DNA of 64,000 bases from Novosphingobium barchaimii LL02 (GTDB lineage: Bacteria > Pseudomonadota > Alphaproteobacteria > Sphingomonadales > Sphingomonadaceae): NCBI RefSeq assembly GCF_001046635.1, contig NZ_KQ130453.1:439001-503000 (forward strand), written 5' to 3'. A program made the position numbers and the translations under genes. The notes under the pieces were generated by a model. The model was not told where the DNA came from and did no database searches. It saw nothing but the letters and a program-made list of their open reading frames with translations. This document shows, one piece after another, positions 18,930 to 53,866 of the stretch. Each line of letters starts with the position of its first letter. The first letter of the stretch is position 1.

Positions 18930-18962
18930 TTGACACGCGGGCTGTCGATGATAGCGTTACCA
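18930..18962 (+). promoter_or_regulatory. Xylose operon promoter with XylR-like operator
   Basis: A perfect TTGACA occurs at 18930-18935. The palindromic TGATAGCGTTACCA lies at 18949-18962, where a -10 element would be. This 14-mer differs at two positions from the Caulobacter xylose-repressor motif TGTTAGCGCTACCA as I recall it. It sits 30 bp upstream of the GH43 GTG start and is shared with the divergent LacI gene. Confidence 0.7.
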
Positions 18963-35992: not shown

Positions 35993-37003
35993 CTATCCCA
36001 GTCCCACCGTCCGGGCCCAGTTACGCCATAGGTCCGGCCAGACCTCTGCCGGTTTGCCGATCGCGCGGCGCAGGCCGAAGCCGTGGCCGCCGTTGGCGAA
36101 CAGGTGCGTTTCCACCGGCACACCGCGCGCCTTGAGCGCGGCGCGCAGGCGCAAGGTATTCTCGACCGGAACCGTCGCGTCGTCCTCGGCATGGGCAAGG
36201 AAGTGCGGCGGGGCATCCGCAGGTACGTTCCGGTCGGGCGAATGCGCCGCTTCCAGCGCCGGGGTAGGCGAGGGACCAAGCAGCAGGCCGCGCGATCCGG
36301 CATGGGCGATCGCCGCGTCCATGCTGACGACCGGGTACATCGGCGCGGCGCAAAGCGGCTTGGCAGAGAGCTTGTCGGCGGCGTCGACGGGGGCATAGAC
36401 GTTCGCTGAAAAGCGCGCGGCAAGGTCGGCGCAGACGTGCCCGCCAGCGGAAAAGCCCATCGCCGCAACGCGCTCCGGGTCGATGGCGAAATCCCGCGCG
36501 CGGTGGCGGATCAGACGTATGGCGCGCTGCGCGTCCGCCAGCGGAGTGTCGGGGCCGCTGGCCCAGCCGTCGCCGGGCAGGCGATAGAACAGGACGAAAG
36601 CGGTGAAGCCGCGCGCCGTCAGCCAGCGGGCCATTTCATAGCCTTCCTTGTCGACCACGATCCATTTGTAGCCGCCGCCCGGCGTAATCATCACCGCCGC
36701 GCCGTTCGGCCGGTCGGGCCGGAATACCGCCATGCGCGGACGGGTAATACCGTAAACGGCGCGGTCGGTGATGAGCGCATCGGTGGAGCGCTCGTCGAAC
36801 TTTTCGGTGAGCGGCGTGCGCGGCATCCCGGGCGCGCCTTTGGGCCACAGGTCGATCGTCTCTGTCGGTTGTGGCAGCCCCGGGGGGAGGGCCCCGGGGC
36901 TGCCTGGCGGCGCTGTCTGCGCCGCCGCGCTCGTGATGAGCCCTTTGCTCAGGGCTCCGGCAGCAAGGGAGCCGGCGATCAGGGTTCTGCGATCGAAGTC
37001 CAT
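35993..37003 (-). CDS. Tat-exported alpha/beta hydrolase, probable carbohydrate acetylesterase
   Basis: This is an esterase-like protein of 336 residues. The leader MDFDRRTLIAGSLAAGALS is a Tat signal. The fold shows the oxyanion segment ITPGGGYKWI, the nucleophile Ser in GFSAGGHVCADLA, an acid in HAEDDATVP and the catalytic His in NGGHGFGLRR. This set matches the BD-FAE / acetyl-xylan-esterase-like group. It is 26 bp downstream of the TonB receptor on the same strand and so falls under the CCGG-type operator upstream of that receptor. Removing acetyl groups from pectin-derived oligomers in the periplasm is the likely job, inferred from context. Confidence 0.85.
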   Translation of the reverse strand: MDFDRRTLIAGSLAAGALSKGLITSAAAQTAPPGSPGALPPGLPQPTETIDLWPKGAPGMPRTPLTEKFDERSTDALITDRAVYGITRPRMAVFRPDRPNGAAVMITPGGGYKWIVVDKEGYEMARWLTARGFTAFVLFYRLPGDGWASGPDTPLADAQRAIRLIRHRARDFAIDPERVAAMGFSAGGHVCADLAARFSANVYAPVDAADKLSAKPLCAAPMYPVVSMDAAIAHAGSRGLLLGPSPTPALEAAHSPDRNVPADAPPHFLAHAEDDATVPVENTLRLRAALKARGVPVETHLFANGGHGFGLRRAIGKPAEVWPDLWRNWARTVGLG

Positions 37004-39931: not shown

Positions 39932-39945
39932 TGATACCGGTGTCA
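39932..39945. promoter_or_regulatory. KdgR-like operator upstream of receptor A
   Basis: TGATACCGGTGTCA, a 14-bp near-palindrome centred on CCGG. It is identical to the site before the paralogous receptor at 53.5 kb and is one of six copies in the window. Confidence 0.75.
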
Positions 39946-40065
39946 ATGACGCGCGCAGTGGCGGCGCATCCTCTCCGGCAACACAACTCCCTTGCCCCTC
40001 GCGGGGCATCGCGGACGACCCTCCAAGATCGCCCGACCGTTCCCAAGTTCATTCTTGCGAGCTTT

Positions 40066-40079
40066 GGTAACCGGTGTCA
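40066..40079. promoter_or_regulatory. KdgR-like operator upstream of the cupin gene
   Basis: GGTAACCGGTGTCA, identical to the kduI site and to the reverse complement of the kdgR-gene site. It lies 59 bp upstream of the cupin GTG start. Confidence 0.75.
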
Positions 40080-40138
40080 TGAATAGTTGCCGCAGGGAGG
40101 GCGCCCTGTCAAGAACCACTGTCATTGGGAGATGCAAA

Positions 40139-40735
40139 GTGAAAATTCGCAGGCTGGCAGGGCAGTTTGTTCCTGTTGTTCTCCTGTTCCCCGCTGCTGC
40201 GCACGCAGCAATTGCTGCGCCGGGAGAGACTTCGGCTACCGTTTCGGCCGAGCAGAATCGCGGCAAAAAGGGGCGAATTATTCGCGTCAACGCGCTGGCG
40301 AAGGACGATCAGCGCTCCGTCACGCAAGTCGCGGAGGCCAAAGGCAAGCGCATCGCCGTGTCCGCGGTGCCCGCTCCACCGATGGCAGTGATCGACGAGC
40401 GTGATACCGTGCGGGAGGAGGCGCCTCCGCATGGTGAGATCGGCATGAGCACCGCCTATCGGATCTCGGATGCTGCGCCCGGACCGCGTGCGATGGAATT
40501 TCGCCGCCGCGTGCTGCACAAGGGCGCGGCGATCGGCGAACATCCCATCGACCATGACGAGGTCTACTACGTCACCGCAGGGGAGGGTGAGGTCGTCTCG
40601 GACGGCAAGCGTGCGGCCCTCAGGCCGGGCATGGCGGCTTATCTCTACCGCGGCGCGGTGGTGGGCATCTGGCAGAAGGGGGCGGAGCCGCTGGCCCTGG
40701 TGATCGCTTATCCCAATCCGCCCAAGGCGCGGTGA
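40139..40735 (+). CDS. Secreted cupin-domain protein of the uronate regulon
   Basis: About 198 residues with a signal peptide ending AAAHA-AI near residue 24. An Ala/charged-rich stretch of about 80 residues follows, then a C-terminal single cupin: EFRRRVLHKGAAIGEHPIDHDEVYY in two halves, VTAGEGEVVSDGKRAALRPGMAAYLYRG. The conserved His/Glu of a metal site (HPIDHDEVYYV) is present. The GTG start at 40139 has GGGAG seven bases before it. A KdgR-like operator precedes it, so it is induced with the pectin genes. The small cupin KdgF, which opens unsaturated galacturonate, is a tempting comparison, but KdgF is shorter and cytoplasmic; the identity is open. Confidence 0.7.
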   Translation: MKIRRLAGQFVPVVLLFPAAAHAAIAAPGETSATVSAEQNRGKKGRIIRVNALAKDDQRSVTQVAEAKGKRIAVSAVPAPPMAVIDERDTVREEAPPHGEIGMSTAYRISDAAPGPRAMEFRRRVLHKGAAIGEHPIDHDEVYYVTAGEGEVVSDGKRAALRPGMAAYLYRGAVVGIWQKGAEPLALVIAYPNPPKAR

Positions 40736-41297
40736 ATGGGCGACCGGCTTGATAAATATAACCGTATCGGTTATAGGACGCCGCATCCGCTGACCTGACG
40801 TACAAGGGTTGGCGGTGTATCGGGTCGGCGCCGTGGGCCGGACGCGAGCGCAAGCCGTGGACCACGCCACCAGCGTCCGACCGGATCGGTTCCCGATTCC
40901 CCTTCACTGGGGCAATTCGTCAGGTCTTCCGCCATCGGCCCGCCTCCCACGAAGAGGGGGCTTTGCGGATGCCCTTCTCGAAGCGGCGGCTTTTGCGAGT
41001 CCGCGCGGCCGTTTCGAACCGATCCGTCAGGACCGAGCCGGGCTGTAGTAGCCGCTATCCGGCCGTTCGCACCAAAGGCCACCCTCCTCGCGTCCTGGCA
41101 CAGGACGCCCCGACGCCGACCCGATGTTTCTCTCGGTTTACGCGTTTTTCCTCGGCGTTACCCCGCACTCGCCAGCGGGCGATGTCCCGTATCCAAGCGC
41201 TTTTCCAGTGCTTGGAGACCGTTTGAGATTGCGCTTTGCCCATTCCAAATGCGCTCTGCTACGCATTTCAAACGATCGGTTGGCGAAGGGCCGGGCT
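40736..41297. other. 562-bp gene-free stretch with inverted repeats
   Basis: No convincing gene was found here; the short open frames have no ribosome site or recognisable content. Two hairpins are visible near the right end: TCCAAGC (41192-41198) with GCTTGGA (41210-41216), and AAATGCG (41247-41253) with CGCATTT (41262-41268). GTTTGA (41221-41226) also pairs with TCAAAC (41268-41273). An AT-rich segment, ATAAATATAACCGTATCGGTTATA, lies near 40752-40775 and includes an inverted repeat TAACCGTATCGGTTA. The stretch may be a decayed element or hold a structured RNA. Confidence 0.4.
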
Positions 41298-42851
41298 TCA
41301 GGTACCTGGCTGGACGTAGGGCGCAGTCGCCCAAAGCTCTCGCTGCCAGCGGCGCGGGTCGTTTTCAATCCGCACGGTGTCGTCGAAGACCATCGTCGCA
41401 CGTTCGGGCAGGCGATAGGCCGACCATTCCGGAAGTCCGGGTCGTCCGGTTTTCGCAAGGCCGGTGAACGCTCGCATCATCGCGATGCTGAGTCTGCGCG
41501 CAGCCTCGTCGGTCCCGGAAAAGCTCCCCGGCGCATCCAGCGTGCCGAAGACATAGGGGATGTCGTCCGTATGCGCGGCCCCGCGCAGGGGATCGACGGG
41601 CGAAGGGCGATCGAGCTGGTATACCCACGTCGAGGAAGCGCCCGCAGCGGCGCGTTCGTCCGCCTCGATCACCTGTCCCGGCCACGAACGACCTGCCGTG
41701 GTAGCGGCGTAATAGACCTGTTGGGGGGACCAATCTGGTTCGCGGCTTCGATACTGCTCAACCACCCAGACAGGGTCGAGGTCGATCTTGATCTCGGGCA
41801 GGATGCGCGCCGCGATGTTCTCCCAGGAGAGGCCCTCAAGTTTTGGACCGCGCGGGTTGAGGAACGCGCGGGTCTCCTCACGCACATTGCCCAGAATCAT
41901 GGGCACCGCCAGCGATTGCTGCGCAGCATCCGGCCAGAACGGGTGGCGCGGCAGGTTGGTCATGTCGAGAACGGGACCGAAATAGACCCCGCCGCCCATT
42001 ACGGGATCAGTGGCGCCCAAACCTTCCATCAACCGTTCGACCGGCATGGTGCGCAAGGCTTCGACATCGCCGGGCGCCAGTTTCAGCGCGGCCATTAAAG
42101 CCTGGGTGCGGCTCCATGCATGGGCCGGGCCGCTTGCCTGCACCTGCTGGCCGCTCATGGTCGCGGCCGTATGGAACAGGGCTTTTGCGGAGGGCATGGC
42201 CATCAAGGTGGCGATCTTGGCGCCGCCGCCCGACTGGCCAAAGACCATGACCCGCGCCGGATCGCCGCCGAATGCTGCAATGTGATCGCGCACCCATTGC
42301 AAGGCCAGGATCAGGTCGAGCTGGCCAAGATTGCCGCTATCGGCATAGCGCGCACCGAAAGGCTTGAGCCAGGCATAACCCAGCGCATTGAGTCGGTGGT
42401 TGACCGTCACCACCACCACATCGCCCTCTGCGGCGAGTTTGGCGCCGTGGGTCAACGGATCGGTGACGGAGCCGGTGGTGTAGGCGCCGCCGTGAAAATA
42501 GACCATCACCGCCCGGCCCGCGCGCGGGTTCGCCTCGGGTGTCCAGACGTTGAGGAACAGGCAGTCTTCCGATTGCGCTTCCCCGCCCATGGCGCGCTGC
42601 GGGCAGATTGGACCGAACTTGTCGGCGCCGAGGGCAGGGCCGTCCCATGGCTCGGCGACGGCGCGGGCAAACCGCGCGGCTCGGCCGTAGCGGATGCCCT
42701 TGAAGGCGAGGACGCCGTTCTCGGCCAGTCCGGTATAGCGGCCCACACGCGGACGTGTCACGCTGCGCGCGAGTAGCGGTGCGGGTGCGGCGCTAGCCAG
42801 TACGGCAGCGGATTTGACGAGGGTGCGCCGGGTGATCCTGGCGGTGTTCAT
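41298..42851 (-). CDS. Tat-exported type-B carboxylesterase
   Basis: This is a carboxylesterase of about 517 residues. The Tat leader is ITRRTLVKSAAVLASAAPAPLL. Family marks are SEDCLFLNVWTPEA, the oxyanion region VYFHGGAYTTGS, the nucleophile Ser in VFGQSGGGAKIATLM, and a C-terminal His in RGAAHTDDIPYVFGT. The ATG at 42851 follows GGGAGTGGACAGC. It lies 68 bp downstream of kdgK and is probably the last gene of the kduI-kduD-kdgK unit. A role in removing ester groups from pectin fragments or phenolic esters is suggested by location only. Confidence 0.88.
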   Translation of the reverse strand: MNTARITRRTLVKSAAVLASAAPAPLLARSVTRPRVGRYTGLAENGVLAFKGIRYGRAARFARAVAEPWDGPALGADKFGPICPQRAMGGEAQSEDCLFLNVWTPEANPRAGRAVMVYFHGGAYTTGSVTDPLTHGAKLAAEGDVVVVTVNHRLNALGYAWLKPFGARYADSGNLGQLDLILALQWVRDHIAAFGGDPARVMVFGQSGGGAKIATLMAMPSAKALFHTAATMSGQQVQASGPAHAWSRTQALMAALKLAPGDVEALRTMPVERLMEGLGATDPVMGGGVYFGPVLDMTNLPRHPFWPDAAQQSLAVPMILGNVREETRAFLNPRGPKLEGLSWENIAARILPEIKIDLDPVWVVEQYRSREPDWSPQQVYYAATTAGRSWPGQVIEADERAAAGASSTWVYQLDRPSPVDPLRGAAHTDDIPYVFGTLDAPGSFSGTDEAARRLSIAMMRAFTGLAKTGRPGLPEWSAYRLPERATMVFDDTVRIENDPRRWQRELWATAPYVQPGT

Positions 42852-42919
42852 GCTGTCCACTCCCGTTATATCATATCGCTGCCCCGGATCGGGTCCGCAG
42901 CGGCGGGGTATCCAATCGC

Positions 42920-43930
42920 TCAGCGCCTTACGTCGCCCCCACTGGCGGAGAAGGCTTCGAGTTCCGCAGGCCCGATCAGACACATGTCGCCGGGCTGGGT
43001 ATGTTTGAGGACGGTATAGGCAAGGCCCGCCTGCGCCGTTGAGACGGTGTCCGCGCCTTGGAGCCACTTGTGCAGCACTCCTGCAGCAAAGGCATCGCCC
43101 GTGCCGATGCGGTCGACGATGCCGGTGACGTCGACTTCGGCGGTCTGGTGAGCCGCATCCCGCGTATCTATGCGGGCGGCGATGCGGTGGTGGCCGGCGT
43201 TCACGACATGGCGCGCGGTGGAGGCGATCAGTTGCAGCTTGGGGAAAGCCTCGAATGCGGCCAGCGCGGCTTCGCGGCGGCGGTCGGAAGCGTCGCCGGA
43301 AAACGGCTTGCCCAGCAGCAGTGAGATGTCGCGGTGGTTGCCGATCATGACCGTGGCCGATTGCATCAGATCGGTCAGAATGCTGCGCGGGTCGCTGTCC
43401 CATGCATCCCATAGCAGCGCGCGGTAATTACCGTCGAAGCAGATCGGCACGCCTGCAGCATTCGCCGCAGCAACGGCGGCCCGGGCCAGCGCCACGCCGC
43501 CGGGGCCAAGCGCCGGTGTGATCCCGGAAAGGTGCAGCAGCCGGGCACCTTCAAGCGCGGAGGCGAAGTTGAAATCGTCCGGCGCGGAATTCGCGAACAC
43601 GCTGCCAGCGCGATCATAAGTGATCGATGAGGGCCTGAGTCCTGCGCCGCTCTCCAGAAAGTAGAGCCCCATGCGGCCCGCCGTGCGGCCGATGTGGAGG
43701 GTATCCACACCGGCTGCCCCCAGCACCGCGCGGGCCTTGTCGCCGAGCGTGCTGGACGGCAACCGGGTGAGCATCCTAACGCCGTGGCCAAGTGAGGCGA
43801 GGCCAGCGCCGACGTTCGCCTCGGCGCCGCCCACCACCATGTCCAGCGCATCGCACTGGACAGTCAGGCGGGCGGCGGGGGTGGCGAAGCGCAGCAGCAC
43901 TTCGCCAAAGCACAGGACATGCCCGATCAT
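42920..43930 (-). CDS. kdgK: 2-keto-3-deoxygluconate kinase
   Basis: A PfkB-family kinase of 336 residues, it phosphorylates KDG to KDPG. The N-terminus reads LCFGEVLLRF with the substrate motif GGAEANVGAGLASLG, as in KdgK. The C-terminal ATP/catalytic motif is DRIGTGDAFAAGVL with base Asp279. It starts one base after the kduD stop, so the genes are translationally coupled. It serves both the kduI-kduD branch and the uxaC-uxaA branch in this window. The KDPG aldolase needed next is not in the window. Confidence 0.93.
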   Translation of the reverse strand: MIGHVLCFGEVLLRFATPAARLTVQCDALDMVVGGAEANVGAGLASLGHGVRMLTRLPSSTLGDKARAVLGAAGVDTLHIGRTAGRMGLYFLESGAGLRPSSITYDRAGSVFANSAPDDFNFASALEGARLLHLSGITPALGPGGVALARAAVAAANAAGVPICFDGNYRALLWDAWDSDPRSILTDLMQSATVMIGNHRDISLLLGKPFSGDASDRRREAALAAFEAFPKLQLIASTARHVVNAGHHRIAARIDTRDAAHQTAEVDVTGIVDRIGTGDAFAAGVLHKWLQGADTVSTAQAGLAYTVLKHTQPGDMCLIGPAELEAFSASGGDVRR

Positions 43931-43931
43931 C

Positions 43932-44687
43932 TCAGCGCGCCAGCCAGCCGCCGTCGACGGCTAGAACGTGGCCCGTCACGTAGTTCGAGGCGGGGGAGGC
44001 CAGGAACACCGCCGCGCCGGCGATGTCGTCCGGATTGCCCCAGCGGCCGGTCGGTATGCGCTCCAGGATCTGGCGATTGCGCGTCTCGTCGCCCTGAAGC
44101 GCTGCGGTGTTGTTGGTGGAGATATAGCCCGGAGCGATCGCGTTGACCTGTACGCCCCTGGGCGCCAGTTCATTGGCCATCGCCTTGGTCACGCCGCTGA
44201 CGCCGGACTTGGCCGCGGCATAGCTGGGCACCCGGATACCGCCCTGAAAGGTAAGCAGCGAGGCGATGTTGACTATCTTGCCGCTGCCCTGTTCGACCAT
44301 GCCCTTCGCGGCGGCCTGGCTCAGGAAGAACAGCGTCTTGAGGTTGGTGTCGATCACCGCATCCCAGTCCTCTTCCGAGAACTGGAGCAGGTCGTCGCGG
44401 CGGATGATGCCGGCGTTGTTGACCAGCACGTCCAGCTTGCCGAGACCGGCGACGGCCTCTGCGATGACGCGCTGGACAGGTTCGATGCTGGAGAGATCGG
44501 CCTTGATGTTGACGGCCTTGCGGCCTGTCTGTGCGATCAGGTCGAGCGTCTCGGCAGGTTCGGAGCGGCCGGCCACCGCAACGTCGGCGCCGGCCTGTGC
44601 GAGGGCCACGGCAATCGCCTGCCCGATCCCGGTGTTGGCACCGGTGACCAGGGCGGACTTGCCTTCGAGGCTGAAGGAAATTGCCAT
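43932..44687 (-). CDS. kduD: 2-dehydro-3-deoxy-D-gluconate 5-dehydrogenase
   Basis: This SDR enzyme of 251 residues reduces 3-deoxy-D-glycero-2,5-hexodiulosonate to KDG in pectin breakdown. It has the coenzyme motif GANTGIG, NNAGIIRR, Ser143 in NIASLLTFQGG and Tyr156/Lys160 in YAAAKSG. The stretches FSLEGKSALVTG and TGRWGNPDDIAGAAVFLAS are typical of KduD. It lies 4 bp after kduI and 1 bp before kdgK. Confidence 0.93.
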   Translation of the reverse strand: MAISFSLEGKSALVTGANTGIGQAIAVALAQAGADVAVAGRSEPAETLDLIAQTGRKAVNIKADLSSIEPVQRVIAEAVAGLGKLDVLVNNAGIIRRDDLLQFSEEDWDAVIDTNLKTLFFLSQAAAKGMVEQGSGKIVNIASLLTFQGGIRVPSYAAAKSGVSGVTKAMANELAPRGVQVNAIAPGYISTNNTAALQGDETRNRQILERIPTGRWGNPDDIAGAAVFLASPASNYVTGHVLAVDGGWLAR

Positions 44688-44691
44688 CGAA

Positions 44692-45528
44692 CTACTGCAG
44701 CTGGCAGATGTCGAGGACGTTCATGTCGGTATAGTCGAGGTTTTCCCCGCCCATAGCCCAGATGAACGCGTACTTCTTGGTGCCCGAACCCATGTGGATC
44801 GACCAAGGCGGGCTGATGACGGCTTCTTCGTTGGCGATGACGATGTGGCGCATCTGGTCCGGCTCTCCCATGTAGTGGAAGATGCGGTCGTTCTCTTCGG
44901 GCAGTTCGAAGTAGAGGTAGATTTCACTGCGGCGATCGTGAAGGTGCGGAGGCATGGTGTTCCATACCGAACCTTCTTCCAGCACGGTCAGGCCGAGCAG
45001 GAGCTGGGCGCTGTCGCAGACGCCGGGGATCACCAGCTGGTAGATCGTGCGCTGGTTCGAATTGGCAAGATCGCCGCGTGCCAGCGGGTTGGCCTGGTCC
45101 AGCGTGATGTGCTTGATCGGCAGCGCCTTGTGGGCCGGGACCGAGGCGATGTAGAACCGCGCACCCTGGCCTTCGAAGATCACCTCATTGGTGCCCATCG
45201 GCACGTAGAGGCATTCCTTGTTCTTCATCTCGAAGCGCTGGCCGTCGACGGTGATCGCGCCCGGTCCGCCGATGTTGGTGATGCCGGCTTCGCGGCGCTC
45301 GAAGAAGGACTTGCCTTCCGCGCTTTTCGGAACGGTCTGCAGCGGCAGGGGAAGCGGGGTCGCACCCGGAACCGCGCCGCCGATGATGAAGCGCTCGTTG
45401 TGCGAGTAGTTGAGGTTGACTTCGCCATCCTTGAACATGCCCGTGACGAGGTAGCGGTCGCGCAGTTCCTCGTTGGAGACGCATTCCATCATGTCCGGAT
45501 GGGTGGCGTGATAGGTTTTGCAGAACAC
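44692..45528 (-). CDS. kduI: 5-dehydro-4-deoxy-D-glucuronate isomerase
   Basis: KduI isomerises 5-keto-4-deoxyuronate, the product of unsaturated uronates from pectin lyases. Its 278 residues equal the E. coli protein length. The zinc ligands appear as His195, His197 and Glu202 in [15 protein letters not shown] and His245 in WSIHMGSG. Other conserved parts are [16 protein letters not shown] and [16 protein letters not shown]. The start is a GTG at 45528 after GGGAGAG. A KdgR-like operator lies 46 bp upstream. It heads the unit kduI-kduD-kdgK-carboxylesterase. Confidence 0.96.
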
Positions 45529-45574
45529 TTGGAACTCTCCCGTTAAGCTCTCGAGGGTCTTGGTATCCGCATTA

Positions 45575-45588
45575 GGTAACCGGTGTCA
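45575..45588. promoter_or_regulatory. KdgR-like operator upstream of kduI
   Basis: GGTAACCGGTGTCA, one of six related 14-mers. It lies between the divergently placed... same-strand kdgR end and the kduI start, 46 bp upstream of the kduI GTG. Confidence 0.8.
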
Positions 45589-45635
45589 ACGCTTCTGGAC
45601 GGTGATCGGCTTTCTTTGCCGGACGGAAAAATTCT

Positions 45636-46652
45636 TCAGGGCAGATATTCGATCGCAGAGGCGCGGCGGACCAGATCGGAGAGGAAGAACGAAGGTTCGG
45701 AAGCTGCCGTTTCCGGGCGCGTCAGCTTGGCGGCGGCAGTGGCCGCCATGGCGCGGATCGGCCAGCGCACTGTGGTCAGGGGGGGCCAGATATGCGCGGC
45801 GATCGCGGTATCGTCGAAGCCGATGATCGACAGGTCTTCAGGCACGCTCATGCCGCGTTCGCGCGCGGCGTGGAGGACGCCGGCGGCCATTTCGTCGTTG
45901 CTGGAGAAGATCGCGGAAGGCGGAGACTTGGCGGAAAGCAGTTTCTGCCCTGCAGCAAGACCCGATTCGAAACGGTAGTTGCCGCGCGCCGCGATCTTCG
46001 CATCGGGCTTCAGTCCGGCGCGCGCCATGCCCTCGGCAAAGCCGAGTTCGCGTTCTCGGGCCGAGAGAAATCCTTCGGGTCCGGCGACGAACCCGATGCG
46101 CTTGTGGCCCAACTCCGCCAGCCAGGCGACGGCGTCGCTTACTGCCTGCCGGTCGTTGGATGCCACCAGGTGAGCGTCATCGTCCAGCCGGGCCGAGCCC
46201 ATGCGTACCACGGTGCATCCCAGATCGCGGCAGGCCTGCGCCAGTTCGTCGTTCTCGGAAATCGGCGGAAGCAGCATTACGCCGTAGAGCCGCTGTTGCT
46301 CGATAAAGCCCCGGATGTCCTCGACCATTGTGGGCGAATGGCGGTCCACCGGGCGCACGACCAAGGCGAATTCGGTATTGCGGATGGTGTCGAGAATACC
46401 CTCCTGCACGCCGAGCACCATCTGGGCGTTCGGGTTGTCGTGGATCAGGCCGATCAGGAAATTGCGCCGCAGCGCCAGTGCACGGGCCTGCGGATTGGGC
46501 ACATACTCCAGTTCGGCGATGACCGCTTCGACCTTCTCGCGGGTGGCCTGGTTGAGCAGCGGCGATTTGTTGATGACCCGGCTGACCGTCTTTTTCGACA
46601 CACCCGACAGGCGCGCGACGTCGTTGATGGTAGGTTTCTGCCCTTTTGCCAT
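45636..46652 (-). CDS. LacI-family regulator of uronate genes (KdgR-like)
   Basis: This is a repressor of about 338 residues. The HTH is TINDVARLSGVSKKTVSRVIN and the next segment is KSPLLNQATREKVEAVIAEL. The sensor domain contains FLIGLIHDNPNAQMVLGVQEG, VMLLPPISEND and DLSIIGFDDTAIA. The ATG at 46652 follows AAAGGACG. It lies upstream of kduI on the same strand, and a CCGG-type operator lies 69 bp before its own ATG, so it should repress itself. The regulator sits in the middle of the six-site regulon and is the best candidate to bind those sites. It is distinct from the IclR-type KdgR of enterobacteria. Confidence 0.88.
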   Translation of the reverse strand: MAKGQKPTINDVARLSGVSKKTVSRVINKSPLLNQATREKVEAVIAELEYVPNPQARALALRRNFLIGLIHDNPNAQMVLGVQEGILDTIRNTEFALVVRPVDRHSPTMVEDIRGFIEQQRLYGVMLLPPISENDELAQACRDLGCTVVRMGSARLDDDAHLVASNDRQAVSDAVAWLAELGHKRIGFVAGPEGFLSARERELGFAEGMARAGLKPDAKIAARGNYRFESGLAAGQKLLSAKSPPSAIFSSNDEMAAGVLHAARERGMSVPEDLSIIGFDDTAIAAHIWPPLTTVRWPIRAMAATAAAKLTRPETAASEPSFFLSDLVRRASAIEYLP

Positions 46653-46721
46653 ACGGCGTCCTTTTGACCTCGTGTCGTGCACGATTTTCCGACTTGCCTT
46701 CGGGTGAGCCAAAAGGCAAGA

Positions 46722-46735
46722 TGACACCGGTTACC
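46722..46735. promoter_or_regulatory. KdgR-like operator upstream of the LacI regulator
   Basis: TGACACCGGTTACC, the exact reverse complement of the kduI and cupin sites. It lies 69 bp upstream of the LacI-gene ATG, suggesting autoregulation. Confidence 0.75.
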
Positions 46736-46876
46736 ATTCTATGGGGCGCGCGCCTGTCGGGTTTAGTTATAGACCCGATTCCCGCCTCCGGCATAGAGAT
46801 AGGCGAAGTTCGCCTGAGGTAATCGATCCTGAGAGCAATCTCCGGAAGTTTTGCGGTAAGCGATCGGGTTCTGGTT

Positions 46877-46890
46877 TGACACCGGTGTCC
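46877..46890. promoter_or_regulatory. KdgR-like operator upstream of the hydratase-exuT operon
   Basis: TGACACCGGTGTCC, a nearly perfect palindrome and the closest to the symmetric form TGACACCGGTGTCA. It lies 31 bp upstream of the hydratase ATG. Confidence 0.8.
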
Positions 46891-46921
46891 ATGACGGACT
46901 TAAGGGCAGACCGGGACGGCG

Positions 46922-47743
46922 ATGCGGTTGAGTATGGGGATTGGTTTGACTGATACGGCAAAAGCAGTAGCCGAGGCTTTCGTGGCGGCCCGGCGCGAAA
47001 AGCGCGCGCTGGTGTCTTACCCCGGAGAGACGCCGGCCGACATGGGCGGCGGCTATACGATCCAGGACTTCGCCATTGCCATAGACGGCCGCGAGATCTC
47101 GGGCTGGAAGGTCGGCAAGATCAATCCACCCGACGACGAGCGCCTTGGCAGCAACCGCCTCGCGGGGCCGATTTTTACGGACAGCGTGGTAACGGTAAAC
47201 GTGGGTGAAGCGCCTGCAATGCCGGTTTTCGCCGATGGTTTTGCCGCGGCAGAGGCGGAGTTCCTGCTGCACGTCGCCGCCGGCTGGGATGGCACCGTCC
47301 CGCAGGACGATGATGCGACGCGCGCTGTCCTCGACGCAGTGCATCTGGGAATCGAAGTCGCCAGTTCGCCGTATCCAGGCATCAACGCCGATGGGCCGCC
47401 GGTCACGGTATCGGACTATGGCAACAACTATGGTCTGGTCATTGGACCGGCGCTTGCCGGTTGGGAAACCATCGACTTTGCCAGTGTCCTCGTCCGCCTC
47501 GAGATAGATGGGTCCGTCGCGGGGGAGAACACCACTGCCGCCATGCTCGACGGGCCGCTGGGCGCGGTACGCTTCCTGCTGGGAAATCTCGCCGGGCGGG
47601 GGATCGACTGCAGCGCGGGCACATGGGTATCCACAGGCGCGGTCACGGGTGTCCACCCGGTGGTGCCGGGAGAGCAGGTTCTCGCTACCTTCGAGGGGCA
47701 GGGGACCGTAGCTTGCGGTATCGTGGCGGCGACGTCGGCCTGA
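46922..47743 (+). CDS. MhpD-like 2-keto-4-pentenoate hydratase family protein
   Basis: The protein has about 273 residues and the FAH/MhpD fold: VAEAFVAARREKRAL, GYTIQDFAIAIDGREISGWKVG, the acidic metal site in AAAEAEFLLHVA, a mid-domain LGIEVASSPYPG, and TWVSTGAVTGVHPVVPGEQV. The family hydrates or decarboxylates unsaturated 2-keto acids. It is first in an operon with the ExuT-like transporter, 53 bp ahead of it, and has its own KdgR-like operator. No standard pectin-pathway step needs such an enzyme, so its substrate is unknown; an unsaturated keto-uronate is a reasonable guess. The ATG at 46934 is an alternative start. Confidence 0.75.
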   Translation: MRLSMGIGLTDTAKAVAEAFVAARREKRALVSYPGETPADMGGGYTIQDFAIAIDGREISGWKVGKINPPDDERLGSNRLAGPIFTDSVVTVNVGEAPAMPVFADGFAAAEAEFLLHVAAGWDGTVPQDDDATRAVLDAVHLGIEVASSPYPGINADGPPVTVSDYGNNYGLVIGPALAGWETIDFASVLVRLEIDGSVAGENTTAAMLDGPLGAVRFLLGNLAGRGIDCSAGTWVSTGAVTGVHPVVPGEQVLATFEGQGTVACGIVAATSA

Positions 47744-47796
47744 GGAAGAATACGAGCACGGCAGGATAACAAGGCCGCCGTTACGGGAGTTGGGAA

Positions 47797-49095
47797 ATGG
47801 GTGCGGAAACAGGCGGCGCAATCAAAGCCGGAGACAAGGTAGGCCGCTATCGATGGGTCGTGGTCGCGCTGCTGTTCGCGGCCACGGCGATCAACTATAT
47901 CGACCGGCAGATGATCGGCGTGCTCAAGCCCACGCTCGCTGCCGAATTTCATTGGTCCGAAACAGACTTTGCGGGCATCGTGTTCTGGTTCCAGGTGGCC
48001 TATGCGATTGGCTACCTGTCATTCGGCAAGGTGGTTGACGCGCTGGGCGCTAGGCTGGGCTACACGATCGCCATCGTGATCTGGACCATCAGCCACATGG
48101 CGCATGGTTTCGCCACTGGCATGATCTCGTTCGCGCTGGCGCGCTTTGGCCTGGGTATCGGCGAATCGGGCAACTTCCCGGCCGGCATCCGCGCCGTGAC
48201 CGACTGGTTCCCGCAGAAGGAGCGCGCTTTCGCCATTGGCGTGTTCAACGCCGGGGCCAATGTCGGCGCCATCATCACCCCGCTGCTGGTGCCGCTGCTG
48301 GTGCTGTGGTTCGACTGGCGGATGGCCTTCTTCGTGACCGGCCTGTTCGGCATCATCTGGCTGGCGGTGTGGTGGATGGTGTACCGCCACCCCACCGAGC
48401 ACACCCGCGTAACGCCCGGCGAACTCGCCTGGATCCGGCAGGACCCGGCCGACCCGGTAGAGAAGATCGGTTGGGGACGCCTGCTCACCGTCAAGGAAAC
48501 CTGGGCTTATGCGCTCGGCAAGTTCCTGATCGACCCGATCTGGTGGTTCTTCCTGTTCTGGCTGCCGGGCTACCTGTTCGACCGTTACGATCTTGACCTC
48601 AAGACTTTCGGCCTGCCTCTGGCGGCGATCTACCTGATCTCCGATCTGGGCAGTGTGGCGGGTGGCTGGTTGTCCTCGAAGCTCATCAAGGCCGGGCGCA
48701 CGCCGAACTTCGCGCGCAAGGTGACGATGCTGATCTGCGCTATTTGCGTGCTGCCGATCTGGTTTGTGCAGGGGATCGACAATGTCTGGATGGCGGTGCT
48801 GGTGATCGGCCTTGCCACGGCGGCGCATCAGGCGTTTTCCGCGAACCTCTACACCCTGCCATCGGATGTGTTTCCGCGCGGCGCGGTGGGGTCGGTGGTC
48901 GGCATAGGCGGCACCGTGGGCGCGTTTGGCGGCATGGGCATGGCGCTGTTCGCCGGCTACATCCTGGATGCCACGCATAGCTACGAGGTGCTGTTCGCGA
49001 TCTGCGCGAGCGCGTACCTGCTGGCGCTGCTGGTGGTGCATATCCTCAGCCCGCGCCTTGCGCCGGTGCGGATCGAGGATGTTTCCCAGCGGTAA
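47797..49095 (+). CDS. MFS hexuronate transporter (ExuT-like)
   Basis: This is an inner-membrane anion:cation symporter family protein of 432 residues with about 12 helices. Family marks are INYIDRQMIGVLKPTLAAEF in helix 1, GKVVDALGARLGY in the loop, GIGESGNFPAGIRAVTDWFPQ and ERAFAIGVFNAGANVGAII. These closely follow ExuT. The ATG has GGGAGTTGGGAA upstream. It follows the MhpD-like hydratase in a KdgR-like controlled operon and should import galacturonate, glucuronate or unsaturated forms. A strong hairpin follows. Confidence 0.9.
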   Translation: MGAETGGAIKAGDKVGRYRWVVVALLFAATAINYIDRQMIGVLKPTLAAEFHWSETDFAGIVFWFQVAYAIGYLSFGKVVDALGARLGYTIAIVIWTISHMAHGFATGMISFALARFGLGIGESGNFPAGIRAVTDWFPQKERAFAIGVFNAGANVGAIITPLLVPLLVLWFDWRMAFFVTGLFGIIWLAVWWMVYRHPTEHTRVTPGELAWIRQDPADPVEKIGWGRLLTVKETWAYALGKFLIDPIWWFFLFWLPGYLFDRYDLDLKTFGLPLAAIYLISDLGSVAGGWLSSKLIKAGRTPNFARKVTMLICAICVLPIWFVQGIDNVWMAVLVIGLATAAHQAFSANLYTLPSDVFPRGAVGSVVGIGGTVGAFGGMGMALFAGYILDATHSYEVLFAICASAYLLALLVVHILSPRLAPVRIEDVSQR

Positions 49096-49102
49096 TGAAC
49101 TG

Positions 49103-49131
49103 GCGGCGGCGGGGTTGTTCCCCGCCGCCGC
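49103..49131. terminator. Strong hairpin after exuT-like gene
   Basis: GCGGCGGCGGGG (49103-49114) and CCCCGCCGCCGC (49120-49131) form a perfect 12-bp stem with a 5-nt loop, between the converging transporter and GH43 genes. Likely two-way terminator. Confidence 0.65.
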
Positions 49132-49184
49132 AGATGAAGACGTTTCTTGGAAGTTTGCTTGCCGGTGAAGGAAAGGCTGCGCTC

Positions 49185-50444
49185 TTAAACCTCGCGCGGG
49201 GTGAAGTCAGCCACCAGCCGGCCTTTTTCATCCATGCGGGCAGGGACGATGCCGGGTTTCTCGCGGAACGGGGCTTCGTCGTCGTTACCGAAGATGGTGC
49301 ACCACCAGCGGCCTTCCTTGTCCTTGAAGATGTTGCCGCCGCCGCCGCAGGCCACGCTTTCATAGCGGTCGCGGTAGGGGCCGAAGGGCTTGTCCGAAGT
49401 CGCCAGCGCGAAGGAATAGCGGTTGTTCACGAAGCGGTCGACGGCGCCGAGGTAGTACGTGCCATCGTGCTTGAACATCGTCGCGCCTTCGAAGCCGATG
49501 TCCTTGAAACCCCGGTGGACACACTTCTTGTTGTGGTGCGCGGGGTCCGGGTCAGGGTTTTCCAGCGCGATCGGCTGCCAGTCGCCGTCGTAGCCAGACA
49601 GGTCCGGCTTGAGGCGCACCATCTCGAATGCCCCGGCATAGGTCAGGTAGACCGCGCCGTCGTCGTCGCCGAACAGCGTGGCGTCGATGCCGTTGCGCAA
49701 GGGTTTGTCCGGCGAAAAGGCGTGGACGTAAGGGCCTTCCGCCTTGCCTGTCGTACTGCGCAGCACGGCAATGCCGGAGCGGCTGATCGAATGGCAGATG
49801 TAGTAGTTGCCGTTGATGAAGTGGATTTCCGGCGCCCATACCGCCCGGAAGTAGTCGCCCTTGCGCACCGACCACTGCTTTTCCCAGACACCGTCCCGCT
49901 CGATGCTCCAGACCAGGCCAAGATAATCCCACTGCTTGAGATCGGGCGAGCGCCAGAGTTCGACGCCGTCATTGGCCTTCCAGATGTCATCGCCGGTCGA
50001 GCCGGTCATGTAGTAATTGCCGTCGCCGCCAAGGCAAACGATGGTGTCGCGAAGGTGCAGATGCAGCAGCGGCTTGACCGGCGGGATCAGGCCTTGCGTA
50101 ACCACGCGTGCCGAGTCCGAATTGGCCCAGGGCAGCAGGTTCGCCGGCGCCGGGCCGGGGCCTTTGTAGCGCACGCCCTTGCGGTCCACCGCCGCTTCGC
50201 TGGTCACCCAGCCGCCGCGCTCGGTTTCAGCGGTGACGGGCAGGCCGGGACCGCTGCGCCGCGCGACATCGTAGTAGCCTGGCGGCGGCGGATCGACTGG
50301 GCGGCCGTTGTCATCCTCGATGGGGAAAGGCGGGCGCTTTTGCGGCGCGACCAGTTCCTTCCCCAAGGCAGGGGCGCCAGCGCCCAGCAACAGGGCGCTC
50401 CCCGCAATCATCGAGCGGCGGCTGAATTCGAAACCTTTGGTCAC
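49185..50444 (-). CDS. Tat-exported GH43 family glycoside hydrolase
   Basis: This is a five-bladed propeller enzyme of about 419 residues. The leader FSRRSMIAGSALLLGAGAPALG is a Tat signal. GH43-like segments include LRDTIVCLGGDGNYYMTGS, ELWRSPDLKQWDYLG, RAVWAPEIHFINGNYYI, NGIDATLFGDDDG (candidate acidic residue) and GFEGATMFKHDGTYYL (candidate acid Glu). It differs from the xylose-operon GH43 and lacks the extra C-terminal sandwich. The start is a GTG after GGGAGAG. It is downstream of TonB receptor B on the same strand, but a strong terminator lies between them. The substrate, perhaps arabinan or galactan side chains of pectin, is inferred. Confidence 0.82.
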   Translation of the reverse strand: MTKGFEFSRRSMIAGSALLLGAGAPALGKELVAPQKRPPFPIEDDNGRPVDPPPPGYYDVARRSGPGLPVTAETERGGWVTSEAAVDRKGVRYKGPGPAPANLLPWANSDSARVVTQGLIPPVKPLLHLHLRDTIVCLGGDGNYYMTGSTGDDIWKANDGVELWRSPDLKQWDYLGLVWSIERDGVWEKQWSVRKGDYFRAVWAPEIHFINGNYYICHSISRSGIAVLRSTTGKAEGPYVHAFSPDKPLRNGIDATLFGDDDGAVYLTYAGAFEMVRLKPDLSGYDGDWQPIALENPDPDPAHHNKKCVHRGFKDIGFEGATMFKHDGTYYLGAVDRFVNNRYSFALATSDKPFGPYRDRYESVACGGGGNIFKDKEGRWWCTIFGNDDEAPFREKPGIVPARMDEKGRLVADFTPREV

Positions 50445-50477
50445 GCTGCGTCTCTCCCGGTTGTCTCGTCAATGCGA

Positions 50478-50520
50478 GTGTAGCCAAGCGACCCAGGCGA
50501 TCTGGATTGCTTGGCTACAC
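50478..50520. repeat. 12-bp inverted repeat upstream of GH43
   Basis: GTGTAGCCAAGC (50478-50489) and GCTTGGCTACAC (50509-50520) are perfectly inverted with a 19-nt spacer. It lies 33 bp upstream of the GH43 GTG and is separate from the receptor terminator. It may be an operator, a leader hairpin or an mRNA-stability element. Confidence 0.5.
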
Positions 50521-50568
50521 GCGCACCGACGAAGAGTTTCGGTAGTTATGTCTCATACTTTCGTCCTG

Positions 50569-50610
50569 AAAAAAGGACCCCGGCCCTGCGCTGTGTGCAG
50601 GACCGGGGTC
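50569..50610 (-). terminator. Rho-independent terminator of TonB receptor B
   Basis: On the minus strand GACCCCGGTCCTGC and GCAGGGCCGGGGTC (50610-50597 and 50589-50576) form a 14-bp stem with one mismatch and a 7-nt loop. A run of six T follows after CC (50574-50569). This is the only canonical intrinsic terminator with a U-tract seen in the window. It directly follows the receptor stop. Confidence 0.85.
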
Positions 50611-50615
50611 AGCCG

Positions 50616-53471
50616 TCAGTACTTGAAACGTACGCCGAAGTAGAACTGGCGCCCGAAGGTGTGGTTCAGCACGACGCGGTTATCCTCGTCGATGTACTGA
50701 TCCTTGCGCTCGTTGGTGAGGTTGTTGCCCTCGATGGTAAGGGTGAGGGCATCGGTAATGTTCACGCCGATGGAGGCGTCGACATTGATCGCGCTGTTCA
50801 CGCCTTCCTCGGTGTTCTGATCCCGCGCGCCGCCGCCGAAAGATTCCACGTAGCCCGAACGATAGGATACCGAACCGCGAAGGGAGAGCAGCTTGTCCTC
50901 GTAGAACAGGGTGCCGTTGGCGGTATGCTTGGACAAATTGGTGAGCGGGCCGGTGACCACGCCGATACCGCCGGGGCCCGGGTACTTCAGGTCTGCCTTG
51001 ACGTACGTATAGTTCGCCAGGATGCCGAGGTTGCGGAAGATACCAGGCAGGAAGTCAAGCTGATGCTGGTAGTTGACCTCAAAGCCCTTGAGCTTGCCGC
51101 CATCGCCGTTGATCGTGCGGCGCACGGTAACCGGCACGTCGGGGGCAAGGCCTTGGTCGGTCGCCAGATTCAGCGGGAAGCCGAGCTGGTTGAATGGCAC
51201 CAGTGTCGAGATCTGGGTACCGCTCAGCGACCCGATGTCCTTCTGGAACAGACTGACGCCCAGCAGCGATCCGGGGGCGAAGTACCATTCAGCGGAAAGG
51301 TCGAGGTTGAATGCCTCGGTGGGGTTCAGGAAGGGGTTGCCCTGGTTGAACACCTGGTTCGCGGCCTGCAATGTCAGGTTGCCGCCGGGGGAAAGCGCGC
51401 CCAGCCCCGGACGGGTGATGACCTGCGCGGCGCCGAAGCGAATGAGGAATTCAGGAGAGAATTCCGCCACCAGGTTCATCGAAGGCAGCCAGTTCTCATA
51501 GCTGCGCTTGACGGTGATCGGCGTGGCGACACCGCTGGCAAGGCCATAGCCGAACGAGGTCTGCTGCGTCTTGACGTAACGCATACCCGCATCGCCGCGA
51601 ACGGTGACACCGCCGAACTCCTGCTCGAAGTCCACCTGGAACCACAGCGCCTTGTCGACCTCCTTGATGTTGCCCGTGTTGCTGGCGGCGGTGGCGTTGG
51701 GGTTGGACCCGGCGACGTCGCGGTCGTTGACGCGGAAGTCCACGGCGCGTCCGTTGATGTCGGTCACGCAGTTGCAGTAGATGCCCAGCGTGTCGACGAA
51801 GCCCTGCAGGTTCGGAATGACGTAGCCGCCGTAAGCCGGATCGCCGGTAACGCCGCCGAAGGGCGTGGTTAGTGCGGCGACTTGCGCAGGCGTCAGTGTG
51901 CCCGATGACGTTTCGGCCACGAAGCGGCGGGATTCGAATGTGTCGTAGCGGAAGCGGCGATATTCACCGCCGAACGACAGCTTGAAGCCTTCGGCCAGAT
52001 CCCATTGACCGCCGAGTTTGGTCGAGAGGTAGTCGTTGGTGACTTCGTTCTTGCGGATACGCACGTCGGATGTGCCGTTGATGAACGACCAGTTTGCCGG
52101 ATTGTTGGGATCGAAGCCCCAGTTTATCGTGGGCGAGCGGTCGTTGTCGCGGTAGTCCCAGCTGAAGCCGTCTGAGTTCAGGCGGTCAAGTACCACGGTG
52201 GTCTGGACCGGGCTGTCGAATTTGGACTTGGAATAGCCGACATAGCCATTGACCCGGAAAGTGTCGGACAGTTCCTGCTTCAGTTCCGAATTGACCTGAT
52301 AGAACGTGGTGCTGAATTCGTCGTGGCGCGATTCGATGCGCATGTCGACGTCATCGAACACGCCGTAGACCAGCTCGTTCTGGTCGTTCACTTCGCCGTC
52401 GCGGATGATCGTCTGCGACTTGCCAGACGCTCCGGTGCGGCTGAACGACAGCGCCTCGATATAGTTTTCCTGACGCTTCGTCTTGGACTTCGAATAGAGC
52501 CCCTCGACGGTGATTTCGGTGCGATCCGAGGGCTTCCACTGGACAGCGCCGGTCAGCCCCAAGCGCTTGATGTCGTTGGTCCAGGTATCGTAGCGCGGAA
52601 TGCGCGGGTGGTAAATCAGGCTGTCCCAGTTGGAGCCGTCCGCCGCGGGCGCGGTGTTGATCTGGGCGGCTGTATAACCGGGCAGGGTGGAGGCGGCGTT
52701 GAACCCGCCGTTGACGCCCGCCGGGCTCCAGCGCACGGTGGAGTGGCCGGTTTCCTTGATGGTGCGGGTCGAATAGGCGCCCGAGGCGAGCACGCCGAAC
52801 GTGCCGCTGTCGTTCTGCCAGCTTACCAGCCCGGCGAAGCGCGGATCCCACGCTTTCGACAGGTCATTGTAACCGGCGCGGGCCGATCCGGCGATCACGA
52901 AGTTGTCCTTGTAGTCCAGCGGGCGGGCCGCCTGAAGGTCTACAGTGGCGCCCAGCGAGCCTTCTTCCACCGAGGCCGAGGCGGTCTTGCGCACGGTCAG
53001 CGAGTTGAACAGTTCGGATGCGAAGACGTTGAAATCGAAGCCGCGGCCCCGGTTGACGCCGCCGCCGGCATCGGAACCGCCCGTGGTGGCGACCGCTTCC
53101 ATTCCGTTGATGCGCACGCGGGTATATTCGGGACCAAGGCCGCGCACGGAGATGCTGCGTCCTTCGCCGCCCTCTCGCGAGATCGCGACGCCGGGAATGC
53201 GCTGGAGGGATTCTGCGAGATTGTTGTCGGGGAACTTGGCGATGTCTTCGGCCTTGATGACATCGACCGCGCCGGTCGCTTCGCGCTTTTCCGCCTGCGC
53301 GGTCTGCACCGAGTTGCGAAAGCCCGTGACGATGATGTCGGCAGGGCTGGCACCGCCCAGGCCTTCGGCCTCGCTATCCTGCGCAATCGCGGGAGAAACG
53401 CAGGCGATCGCCAGTACCGTGATGGAAGCGCTGCGCGCCAGGCGGCGACGAAGTACCATTGAAGACGTCAT
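50616..53471 (-). CDS. TonB-dependent receptor, pectin-type regulon (paralogue B)
   Basis: This is a receptor of 951 residues. The signal peptide ends VSPAIA-QD near residue 30. The plug has IIVTGFRNSVQTAQAEKR, KFPDNNLAESLQRIPG, EGRSISVRGLGPEYTRVRING and FNVFASELFNSLTVRK, and the barrel ends FGRQFYFGVRFKY. These segments nearly repeat those of receptor A at 37-39.9 kb. An operator identical to that of receptor A lies 86 bp upstream of its ATG. It ends at a canonical terminator, with a GH43 gene beyond. Uronate oligosaccharide uptake is the likely role. Confidence 0.93.
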   Translation of the reverse strand: MTSSMVLRRRLARSASITVLAIACVSPAIAQDSEAEGLGGASPADIIVTGFRNSVQTAQAEKREATGAVDVIKAEDIAKFPDNNLAESLQRIPGVAISREGGEGRSISVRGLGPEYTRVRINGMEAVATTGGSDAGGGVNRGRGFDFNVFASELFNSLTVRKTASASVEEGSLGATVDLQAARPLDYKDNFVIAGSARAGYNDLSKAWDPRFAGLVSWQNDSGTFGVLASGAYSTRTIKETGHSTVRWSPAGVNGGFNAASTLPGYTAAQINTAPAADGSNWDSLIYHPRIPRYDTWTNDIKRLGLTGAVQWKPSDRTEITVEGLYSKSKTKRQENYIEALSFSRTGASGKSQTIIRDGEVNDQNELVYGVFDDVDMRIESRHDEFSTTFYQVNSELKQELSDTFRVNGYVGYSKSKFDSPVQTTVVLDRLNSDGFSWDYRDNDRSPTINWGFDPNNPANWSFINGTSDVRIRKNEVTNDYLSTKLGGQWDLAEGFKLSFGGEYRRFRYDTFESRRFVAETSSGTLTPAQVAALTTPFGGVTGDPAYGGYVIPNLQGFVDTLGIYCNCVTDINGRAVDFRVNDRDVAGSNPNATAASNTGNIKEVDKALWFQVDFEQEFGGVTVRGDAGMRYVKTQQTSFGYGLASGVATPITVKRSYENWLPSMNLVAEFSPEFLIRFGAAQVITRPGLGALSPGGNLTLQAANQVFNQGNPFLNPTEAFNLDLSAEWYFAPGSLLGVSLFQKDIGSLSGTQISTLVPFNQLGFPLNLATDQGLAPDVPVTVRRTINGDGGKLKGFEVNYQHQLDFLPGIFRNLGILANYTYVKADLKYPGPGGIGVVTGPLTNLSKHTANGTLFYEDKLLSLRGSVSYRSGYVESFGGGARDQNTEEGVNSAINVDASIGVNITDALTLTIEGNNLTNERKDQYIDEDNRVVLNHTFGRQFYFGVRFKY

Positions 53472-53866
53472 TGTTATCCTCCCCTTTTATTCGACCCGGC
53501 ACTTCAAAGAGCGCCGTTATCGTTGAGCTTCCCCGGCTCTGCTTTATCAGTAAACTTGATACCGGTGTCAGCAACCGCGAATTTGGTCTTGGGACGATAG
53601 GCGCAGTCGTCCGTTGCTTCGTCCGCGAAAAGAGGCACGATCGATGCACGCGCAGCATCGGTTGCAACATGGCGGTGGCCGGCAAGGCAATTCGACGGAC
53701 GCGGCGCGCTTCAGCCGGGGCAAATTTGGTACGATCCTACGGGCTGCGCGGTGGATGATGCGCAGCCGGCATTGATCGAGTTCAATTGCGGCATGGATGG
53801 GCCGCCCGTCGCGCGCCTAGTCTGGACGAACGATAAGCCCGCAAATGGGCCAAGGGAGAGTTGGAC
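53472..53866. other. 395-bp divergent intergenic region
   Basis: No gene was recognised between receptor B and the GudP-like transporter. It contains the operator TGATACCGGTGTCA at 53557-53570, which is closer to the receptor (86 bp) than to the transporter (296 bp). The remaining sequence shows no clear repeat or hairpin. Confidence 0.6.
53557..53570. promoter_or_regulatory. KdgR-like operator upstream of receptor B
   Basis: TGATACCGGTGTCA, identical in all 14 bases to the site before receptor A at 39932-39945. Confidence 0.75.

Follow-up and report, generated by a model that had tools for sequence, protein, structure and literature searches.

A candidate LacI-family operator for pectin and uronate genes in Novosphingobium barchaimii and its relatives

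Sites and genes of the locus

The stretch analyzed here, 64,000 nucleotides of Novosphingobium barchaimii LL02 (contig NZ_KQ130453.1, positions 439,001 to 503,000; below, the window, numbered from its first letter), holds genes for pectin and uronate use around the gene of a LacI-family protein, LacI1 (Table 1). A sequence-only reading of it had picked out six 14-mers in intergenic DNA, each before a transcription unit, and named LacI1 as their natural binder. All six were present exactly as claimed and all lie upstream of genes, although the site at 40066 reaches a potential ATG of the cupin open reading frame (ORF), whose true start is uncertain. We consider it highly probable that the six are operators of LacI1, through which it would repress its own and the pectin/uronate genes until released by a uronate intermediate; binding, the sign of regulation and the inducer we infer from the sites, their conservation, their co-occurrence with LacI1, their overlap with promoters and the unlinked copies, all read from sequence.

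The 9-mer CCGGTGTCA, searched on both strands, has six copies in the window, solely at the six sites. With up to three mismatches, TGACACCGGTGTCA gave 10 matches against 2.15 expected, a count reached in none of 100 shuffles. A matrix built from the six sites scored them at 19.6 to 22.4, the next best match (14.4) lying within kduD. A second matrix drew on 325 sites of relatives, leaving out the window, G001 and L087, and put exactly the same six on top (21.0 to 22.1; next, 12.7), though it is not wholly independent because its sites came from a scan with the first matrix; 60 first-order Markov resamplings had on average 0.017 such sites in 64 kb. The central ACCGGT, with a CG pair in the middle as in an even-length operator, is common to all six, and both halves read TGAYACC in two. 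Operator 3 overlaps a TTGACA −35-like box with an 18-nt spacer to TACCAA, and operator 6 also lies about 290 bp upstream of a divergent major facilitator superfamily (MFS) transporter gene.

Table 1. Coordinates of the candidate operators and genes in the window
Feature	Positions	Strand	Remarks
Operator 1, TGATACCGGTGTCA	39932..39945		both halves TGAYACC; before TonB receptor 1–PaeX-like esterase unit; also before TBDR1 in relatives
Operator 2, asymmetric GGTAACCGGTGTCA	40066..40079		between TBDR1 and pectate-lyase/cupin place; same word before relatives' pectate lyase
Operator 3, asymmetric	45575..45588		before kduI-kduD-kdgK-esterase
Operator 4, asymmetric TGACACCGGTTACC	46722..46735		upstream of lacI (candidate autoregulation), facing divergent unit
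Operator 5, TGACACCGGTGTCC	46877..46890		before hydratase-exuT unit
Operator 6, TGATACCGGTGTCA	53557..53570		both halves TGAYACC; before TonB receptor 2–GH43
Decayed operator counterpart	18931..18944		between second lacI and GH43; intact in G001 and G033
LacI-family repressor (LacI1), predicted binder	45636..46652	-	Pfam LacI and Peripla_BP_3
kduI, 5-dehydro-4-deoxy-D-glucuronate isomerase	44692..45528	-	NCBIfam NF002091 above cut-off
kduD, 2-dehydro-3-deoxy-D-gluconate 5-dehydrogenase	43932..44687	-	TIGR01832 above cut-off
PfkB-family kinase, probable 2-keto-3-deoxygluconate (KDG) kinase (kdgK)	42920..43930	-	Pfam PfkB; best NCBIfam models of KDG-kinase type, below cut-off
Carboxylesterase, last gene of kdu unit	41298..42851	-	Pfam COesterase; start ATG 42851 by comparison
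Hydratase/decarboxylase-fold enzyme	46922..47743	+	first gene of divergent unit; core regulon member
MFS transporter, ExuT-like	47797..49095	+	Pfam MFS_1; D-galactonate transporter subfamily below cut-off
TonB-dependent receptor 1 (TBDR1)	37030..39897	-	TIGR01782 above cut-off
PaeX-like esterase behind TBDR1	35993..37003	-	NF041902 pectin acetylesterase PaeX, E 2.1e-96; 323 bits vs cut-off 550
TonB-dependent receptor 2 (TBDR2)	50616..53471	-	TIGR01782 above cut-off
GH43 enzyme	49185..50444	-	Pfam Glyco_hydro_43
Fusion ORF, pectate-lyase N-terminus and cupin	40078..40735	+	start uncertain; junction near 40363

The placement of LacI1 in its family rests on its domains, PF00356 (the LacI helix-turn-helix, 70 bits) and PF13377 (122 bits), each above cut-off, and not on the palindromy of the operator. 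The GH43 gene, downstream of TBDR2 on the same strand, is probably cotranscribed with it, and two MFS transporters in the window are supported at the Pfam level. The hydratase gene gave no Pfam family at E 0.001 and weak NCBIfam matches to 2-oxo-3-hexenedioate decarboxylase and hydratases. The nearest Foldseek neighbors of its AlphaFold model (pLDDT 94.9) were 4-oxalocrotonate decarboxylase and MhpD (TM score 0.75 to 0.80, 19 to 23% identity; MhpD 1sv6, 0.80), and from these modeled likenesses we call the product a putative hydratase/decarboxylase-fold enzyme. Positions 55207 to 57069, which lie near operator 6 and downstream of the MFS gene, encode a secreted-looking protein of 620 residues for which neither Pfam nor NCBIfam gave a family; its structure model, from two sequences, reached pLDDT 36.5. 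A 50% relative, found in G031 (L199), is preceded by an operator at a distance of 195 bp.

What had been read as a secreted cupin proved not to be a simple cupin: in this ORF a deletion has fused the start of a pectate lyase to a cupin, about 1.16 kb being lost in comparison with G001, the nearest genome to the window (26% of sampled words shared). There, the gene after operator 2 is a 477-residue pectate-lyase ORF (PelZ-like, E 2.4e-98, below cut-off) overlapping a small cupin, and G033 and many other relatives likewise have a lyase at the place of the fusion. Because relatives carry a pectate lyase and then a small cupin, the operator at 40066 appears to have originally served the lyase, the divergent receptor or both. 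Matches of the cupin to KdgF among PDB sequences were weak (5fpz, 5fpx and 5fq0, E 0.1 to 0.5). DNA looping between paired operators was considered and provisionally rejected, as the spacing of the TBDR1/lyase pair ranges from 112 to 171 bp across genomes with no fixed helical phase.

Co-occurrence of LacI1 and the sites in relatives

Comparison with 98 genomes, 59 of the same genus and 39 of other genera, revealed LacI1 orthologs (about 57% identity or more) in 23, all among the 59. Within the genus, TGAYACCGGTRTCA was found in 17 of the 23 genomes with the ortholog and in none of the 36 without (Fisher, 3.6e-10), and GGWAACCGGTGTCA in 21 of 23 and 2 of 36, respectively (Fisher, 1.1e-11), values that overstate the number of independent events because the genomes are related. 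Across all 98 genomes GGWAACCGGTGTCA has 97 matches and its reversed control pattern 2. In G001, 7 of the 10 matches to TGACACCGGTNNC in 6.6 Mb fall within 32 kb syntenic with the window; two of the remaining three lie in called ORFs and the third has no site at score 15. Both genus members carrying GGWAACCGGTGTCA without an ortholog are explicable: in G051 the two sites are in called ORFs, and in G019, which is 80% complete, sites stand before a DhuI-like gene, the hydratase and TBDR1, with contigs ending where lacI is expected. Sites inside called ORFs (G051; G077, one site; G031:C10; G040:C13) were taken as chance. G095, from another family, has four sites near a LacI relative of 45% identity.

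We scanned GTDB with an alignment of the 23 orthologs and took the best 80 of at least 592 relatives, which come from Novosphingobium, Sphingomonas, Blastomonas, Altererythrobacter, Qipengyuania and others. All 80 loci contain at least one site, 78 at least two and 79 an intergenic one (the exception being L165). The 302 sites found, 282 of them outside called genes, compare with 8 when the same 1.27 Mb was resampled once under a Markov model, and 69 of the 79 loci with lacI called have a site at most 450 bp upstream of it. Residues K20 and K21, which we take to be DNA-reading positions, are invariant in all 23 aligned LacI1 proteins, and all 80 loci show KK. Among 289 genomes drawn from the class, 12 gave a match at E 1e-80; 7 of the 11 best hits, including that of G001 itself, have sites within the approximately 4 kb read, 5 being outside the order, and 4 have none.

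Where the gene after lacI encodes an isomerase, a site precedes it in 61 of 61 loci (27 kduI, 18 DhuI-like and 16 uxaC); where another named gene follows, the site is absent in 8 of 8, and 11 loci were left unassigned. The DhuI-like protein matches PDB 4u8e (gbs1892, presumably DhuI) with E 5e-79. As stated in PMC12838403 (here and below, papers are cited for portions of their text), DhuI and KduI catalyze the same step without being homologous, and in the survey of that paper dhuI-kduD clusters were confined to Sphingomonadaceae and Erythrobacteraceae. Since the same operator stands before three unrelated isomerases, regulation appears to be more stable than the enzyme controlled.

The regulon had been described as local, but in some relatives, which have unlinked sites, it is not purely so. 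Five genomes (L195, L196, L200, L201 and L202) carry one before edd, in the order zwf-edd-glk-eda in L195 and L200 (families checked in L200). These sites possibly link uronate sensing to the Entner–Doudoroff operon; if true, the same control would extend to 2-keto-3-deoxy-6-phosphogluconate aldolase, the enzyme that follows KDG kinase. Among the other genes with an unlinked intergenic site in front are uxaC/manD, GH43/garD, lyase and TonB genes. The comparison with relatives, including these trans sites at pathway genes, strongly supports the proposed pectin/uronate content of the regulon, and LacI1 as the predicted binder is likewise strongly backed by the co-occurrence of protein and site, the site before lacI, the invariant K20 and K21 and the trans sites.

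Proteins of about 1272 residues (L069:6924-10742, L070:6837-10628 and L049:15285-19100) showed a LamG domain in L069 and L049 and no other family; those of L069 and L070 lie directly behind a TGATACCGGTGTCA site on a contig other than that of lacI. In Altererythrobacter (L126 and L133, near 2000) the operator precedes a solute-binding protein of tripartite ATP-independent periplasmic (TRAP) type (DctP; family checked in L126), likely an alternative uronate uptake system.

The window holds a second LacI protein (17812-18846, beside garD-uxaC-uxuB), and we judged whether it, rather than LacI1, is the real binder or shares the six sites. The absence of the motif from the xylose part, as the sequence-only reading had it, holds for the window, where the counterpart keeps the TGACAC half only, but the site between the second lacI and GH43, directly upstream of the regulator gene, is intact in G001 and G033; it is one of the seven syntenic sites of G001. 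Orthologs of the second protein (at least 56% identity), on the other hand, occur in only 6 of the 98 relatives, all of which also have LacI1, and TGAYACCGGTRTCA is found in 11 further genomes with LacI1 and without it. Its reading residues are IR, not KK, and its own promoter carries a different word, TGATAGCGTTACCA, albeit as a single site. Altogether, a role of the second LacI at the six sites seems very improbable, and LacI1 is retained as the predicted binder. Within 18931-18962 the decayed ACCGGT operator lies beside this palindrome-like word (at 18949; TGATAGCGTTATCA in G001), which is perhaps the site of the second LacI; a regulon built around TGATAGCGTTACCA was rejected, with one close match in the window and totals within chance.

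Promoter overlap, operator polarity and proposed mechanism

Hydratase promoters have a TTG at −7 and, after a 17-nt spacer, a TA around the operator in 77% of 82 distinct sequences, the next register accounting for 1%. In uxaC promoters the TTG is at −13 with 17 nt in 17 of 17; the GGTTACC half would form the −10, and the TA is fixed because it is part of the operator itself. The 37 kduI promoters show two registers, with 18-nt (62%) and 17-nt (27%) spacers, each sharing bases with the operator. Such overlap of operator and promoter in several classes suggests that repression works by occlusion. The words could instead be conserved promoter elements without a regulator, TTGACA serving as a −35 box and the similarity being spread by shared ancestry of the locus, and the TGACAC half is indeed a −35-like box in part of the kduI promoters. 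We give this explanation almost no weight: most hydratase promoters have their −35 and −10 outside the operator and nearly all remaining flanks unconserved, unlinked genes also have intergenic sites, and genomes with the LacI ortholog account for nearly all occurrences of the words. In the hydratase class, operator columns carry 1.4 to 2.0 bits, the −35/−10 columns 1.1 to 1.3, the base before the operator 0.8 and the remaining printed columns at most 0.6.

LacI1 might instead bind the sites as an activator or dual regulator; dual LacI-family regulators exist, PckR being predicted to be one (PMC4052901). Among the promoters examined, however, most of hydratase and kduI and all of uxaC have the operator over the core promoter and not upstream of it, and the site upstream of the regulator's own gene in 69 of 79 loci also argues against activation, which makes this reading improbable and leaves repression by LacI1 as the preferred one.

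LacI-family operators are usually palindromes of inverted repeats (PMC4052901). Among 342 distinct intergenic sites, 272 read GGWAACCGGTGTCA, a form with inverted symmetry just in N-G-N-N-A-C-C, and 23 have TGAYACC in both halves (TGATACCGGTGTCA); the scoring matrix was symmetrized and favors the symmetric form, and is therefore not the source of the bias. Of 174 distinct promoters of kduI, uxaC, uxaA and the hydratase, nearly all from lacI-linked loci of Sphingomonadales, 172 have the TGAYACC half on the upstream side and its partner half toward the gene. Polarity is reversed at 30 of 30 lyase and 32 of 38 lacI sites, mixed at TBDR1 (n = 59; 18 symmetric, 35 upstream-only and 6 proximal-only) and of the catabolic type at all 5 edd sites. 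Across 22 more loci, most of them unlinked or outside the order, the catabolic polarity is retained in 6 of 10 promoters of these four genes (exceptions in L170, L171, L205 and L206). An origin of the lyase polarity in the divergent TonB receptor was rejected, since the lyase of L194 (G095) is reversed with no called divergent gene within 500 bp. The natural operator of the LacI1 group may be directional and not palindromic, a dimer reading the unlike halves TGAYACC/GGWAACC, an idea that we hold tentatively and marked down slightly because polarity elsewhere was just 6 of 10. Unlike halves would make affinity or fit to RNA polymerase differ by promoter, with symmetric sites at some TonB receptors and tuned asymmetric ones at catabolic operons. 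The conserved asymmetry poses the question of why a dimeric repressor would keep unequal half-sites.

Several observations weigh against LacI1 acting as a repressor through these sites. Three genomes of other families without an ortholog (G071, G072 and G073) have one TGAYACCGGTRTCA each, and the exact word is missing with the two most diverged orthologs of the genus (G023 and G054, 56 to 58% identity): the 17.5 kb read of G023 gave no site, and G054 has just a variant before lacI. KK-type proteins L168, L172, L176, L177 and L040 to L043 have no site in the approximately 4 kb read, though the genome of L040 does hold sites further off, while 2 of 12 non-KK paralogs have one (L186 and L188, the latter being the second LacI of G001). 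Twenty GTDB sites are inside called genes, some recurring at one place, as does TGTCACCGGTTTCC within a called gene of the Sphingomonas-type loci L156, L158, L163, L165 and L166. We saw no clear promoter register in uxaA (best, 24% of 38) or in the TBDR1, pectate-lyase and LacI1 classes (at most 8%), the majority −35 box is missing from the hydratase promoter of the window itself, and the case for repression over activation is argued by analogy. The KK residues as a sufficient code for ACCGGT gained no support, as several KK proteins have no site nearby.

In the mechanism that we propose, LacI1 without inducer would occupy the lacI promoter and those of the pectin/uronate genes (the TonB receptors, the lyase/cupin place, kduI-kduD-kdgK-esterase and hydratase-exuT) and block RNA polymerase, and an intermediate of uronate breakdown, most likely KDG, would release it. 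The KduI/KduD, DhuI/KduD and UxaC/UxaA branches, which share the operator, all yield KDG, hence its proposal as the likeliest inducer.

Relation to known regulators

KdgR of Erwinia and Dickeya, a regulator of the IclR family, controls pectate lyases, kduI, kduD and kdgK. The regulon content described here is similar, whereas the predicted binder is of LacI and not of IclR type. LacI-family uronate regulators (ExuR, KdgR, UxaR and UxuR) were listed by Ravcheev et al. 2014 (PMC4052901); they share protein family and kind of pathway with LacI1, and the KdgR, UxaR and UxuR of Bacteroides form one lineage-specific branch. The string "sphingomon" does not occur in the main text of that paper. The Xanthomonas pectin locus XCC0120 has a TonB receptor beside pectin-degrading enzymes and is induced by polygalacturonate (PMC1790865 and PMC3551730), with no LacI operator given for it in the portions of these texts used. 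The LacI1 regulon is not described in the corresponding portions of PMC5507952, PMC1790865, PMC10766802 and PMC3551730, and a literature search covering titles and the starts of abstracts, with RegPrecise and supplements outside its scope, gave no account of it among the matches listed.

With LacI1, a large group of bacteria from soil, plants and water gains a candidate regulator of pectin and uronate use that can be tested, and orphan genes are tied to the pathway, namely the hydratase-fold enzyme, the 1272-residue LamG protein behind TGATACCGGTGTCA (in two genomes) and the esterases. The nearest described operator among those that we found is TGAAACCGGTTTCA of PtxS, the LacI-family 2-ketogluconate repressor of Pseudomonas (PMC5902321 and PMC12195362), which lies near the −10 region and through which PtxS represses ptxS itself (PMC5902321). 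None of the six window sites equals it, but the ACCGGT core and the size of 14 bp are common to both operators, as is a LacI-family repressor of a sugar-acid pathway. The PtxS operator is palindromic, its effector is 2-ketogluconate and its targets are kgu, gad, ptxS and others, whereas the predicted LacI1 system is made up of uronate and pectin genes behind mostly asymmetric operators.

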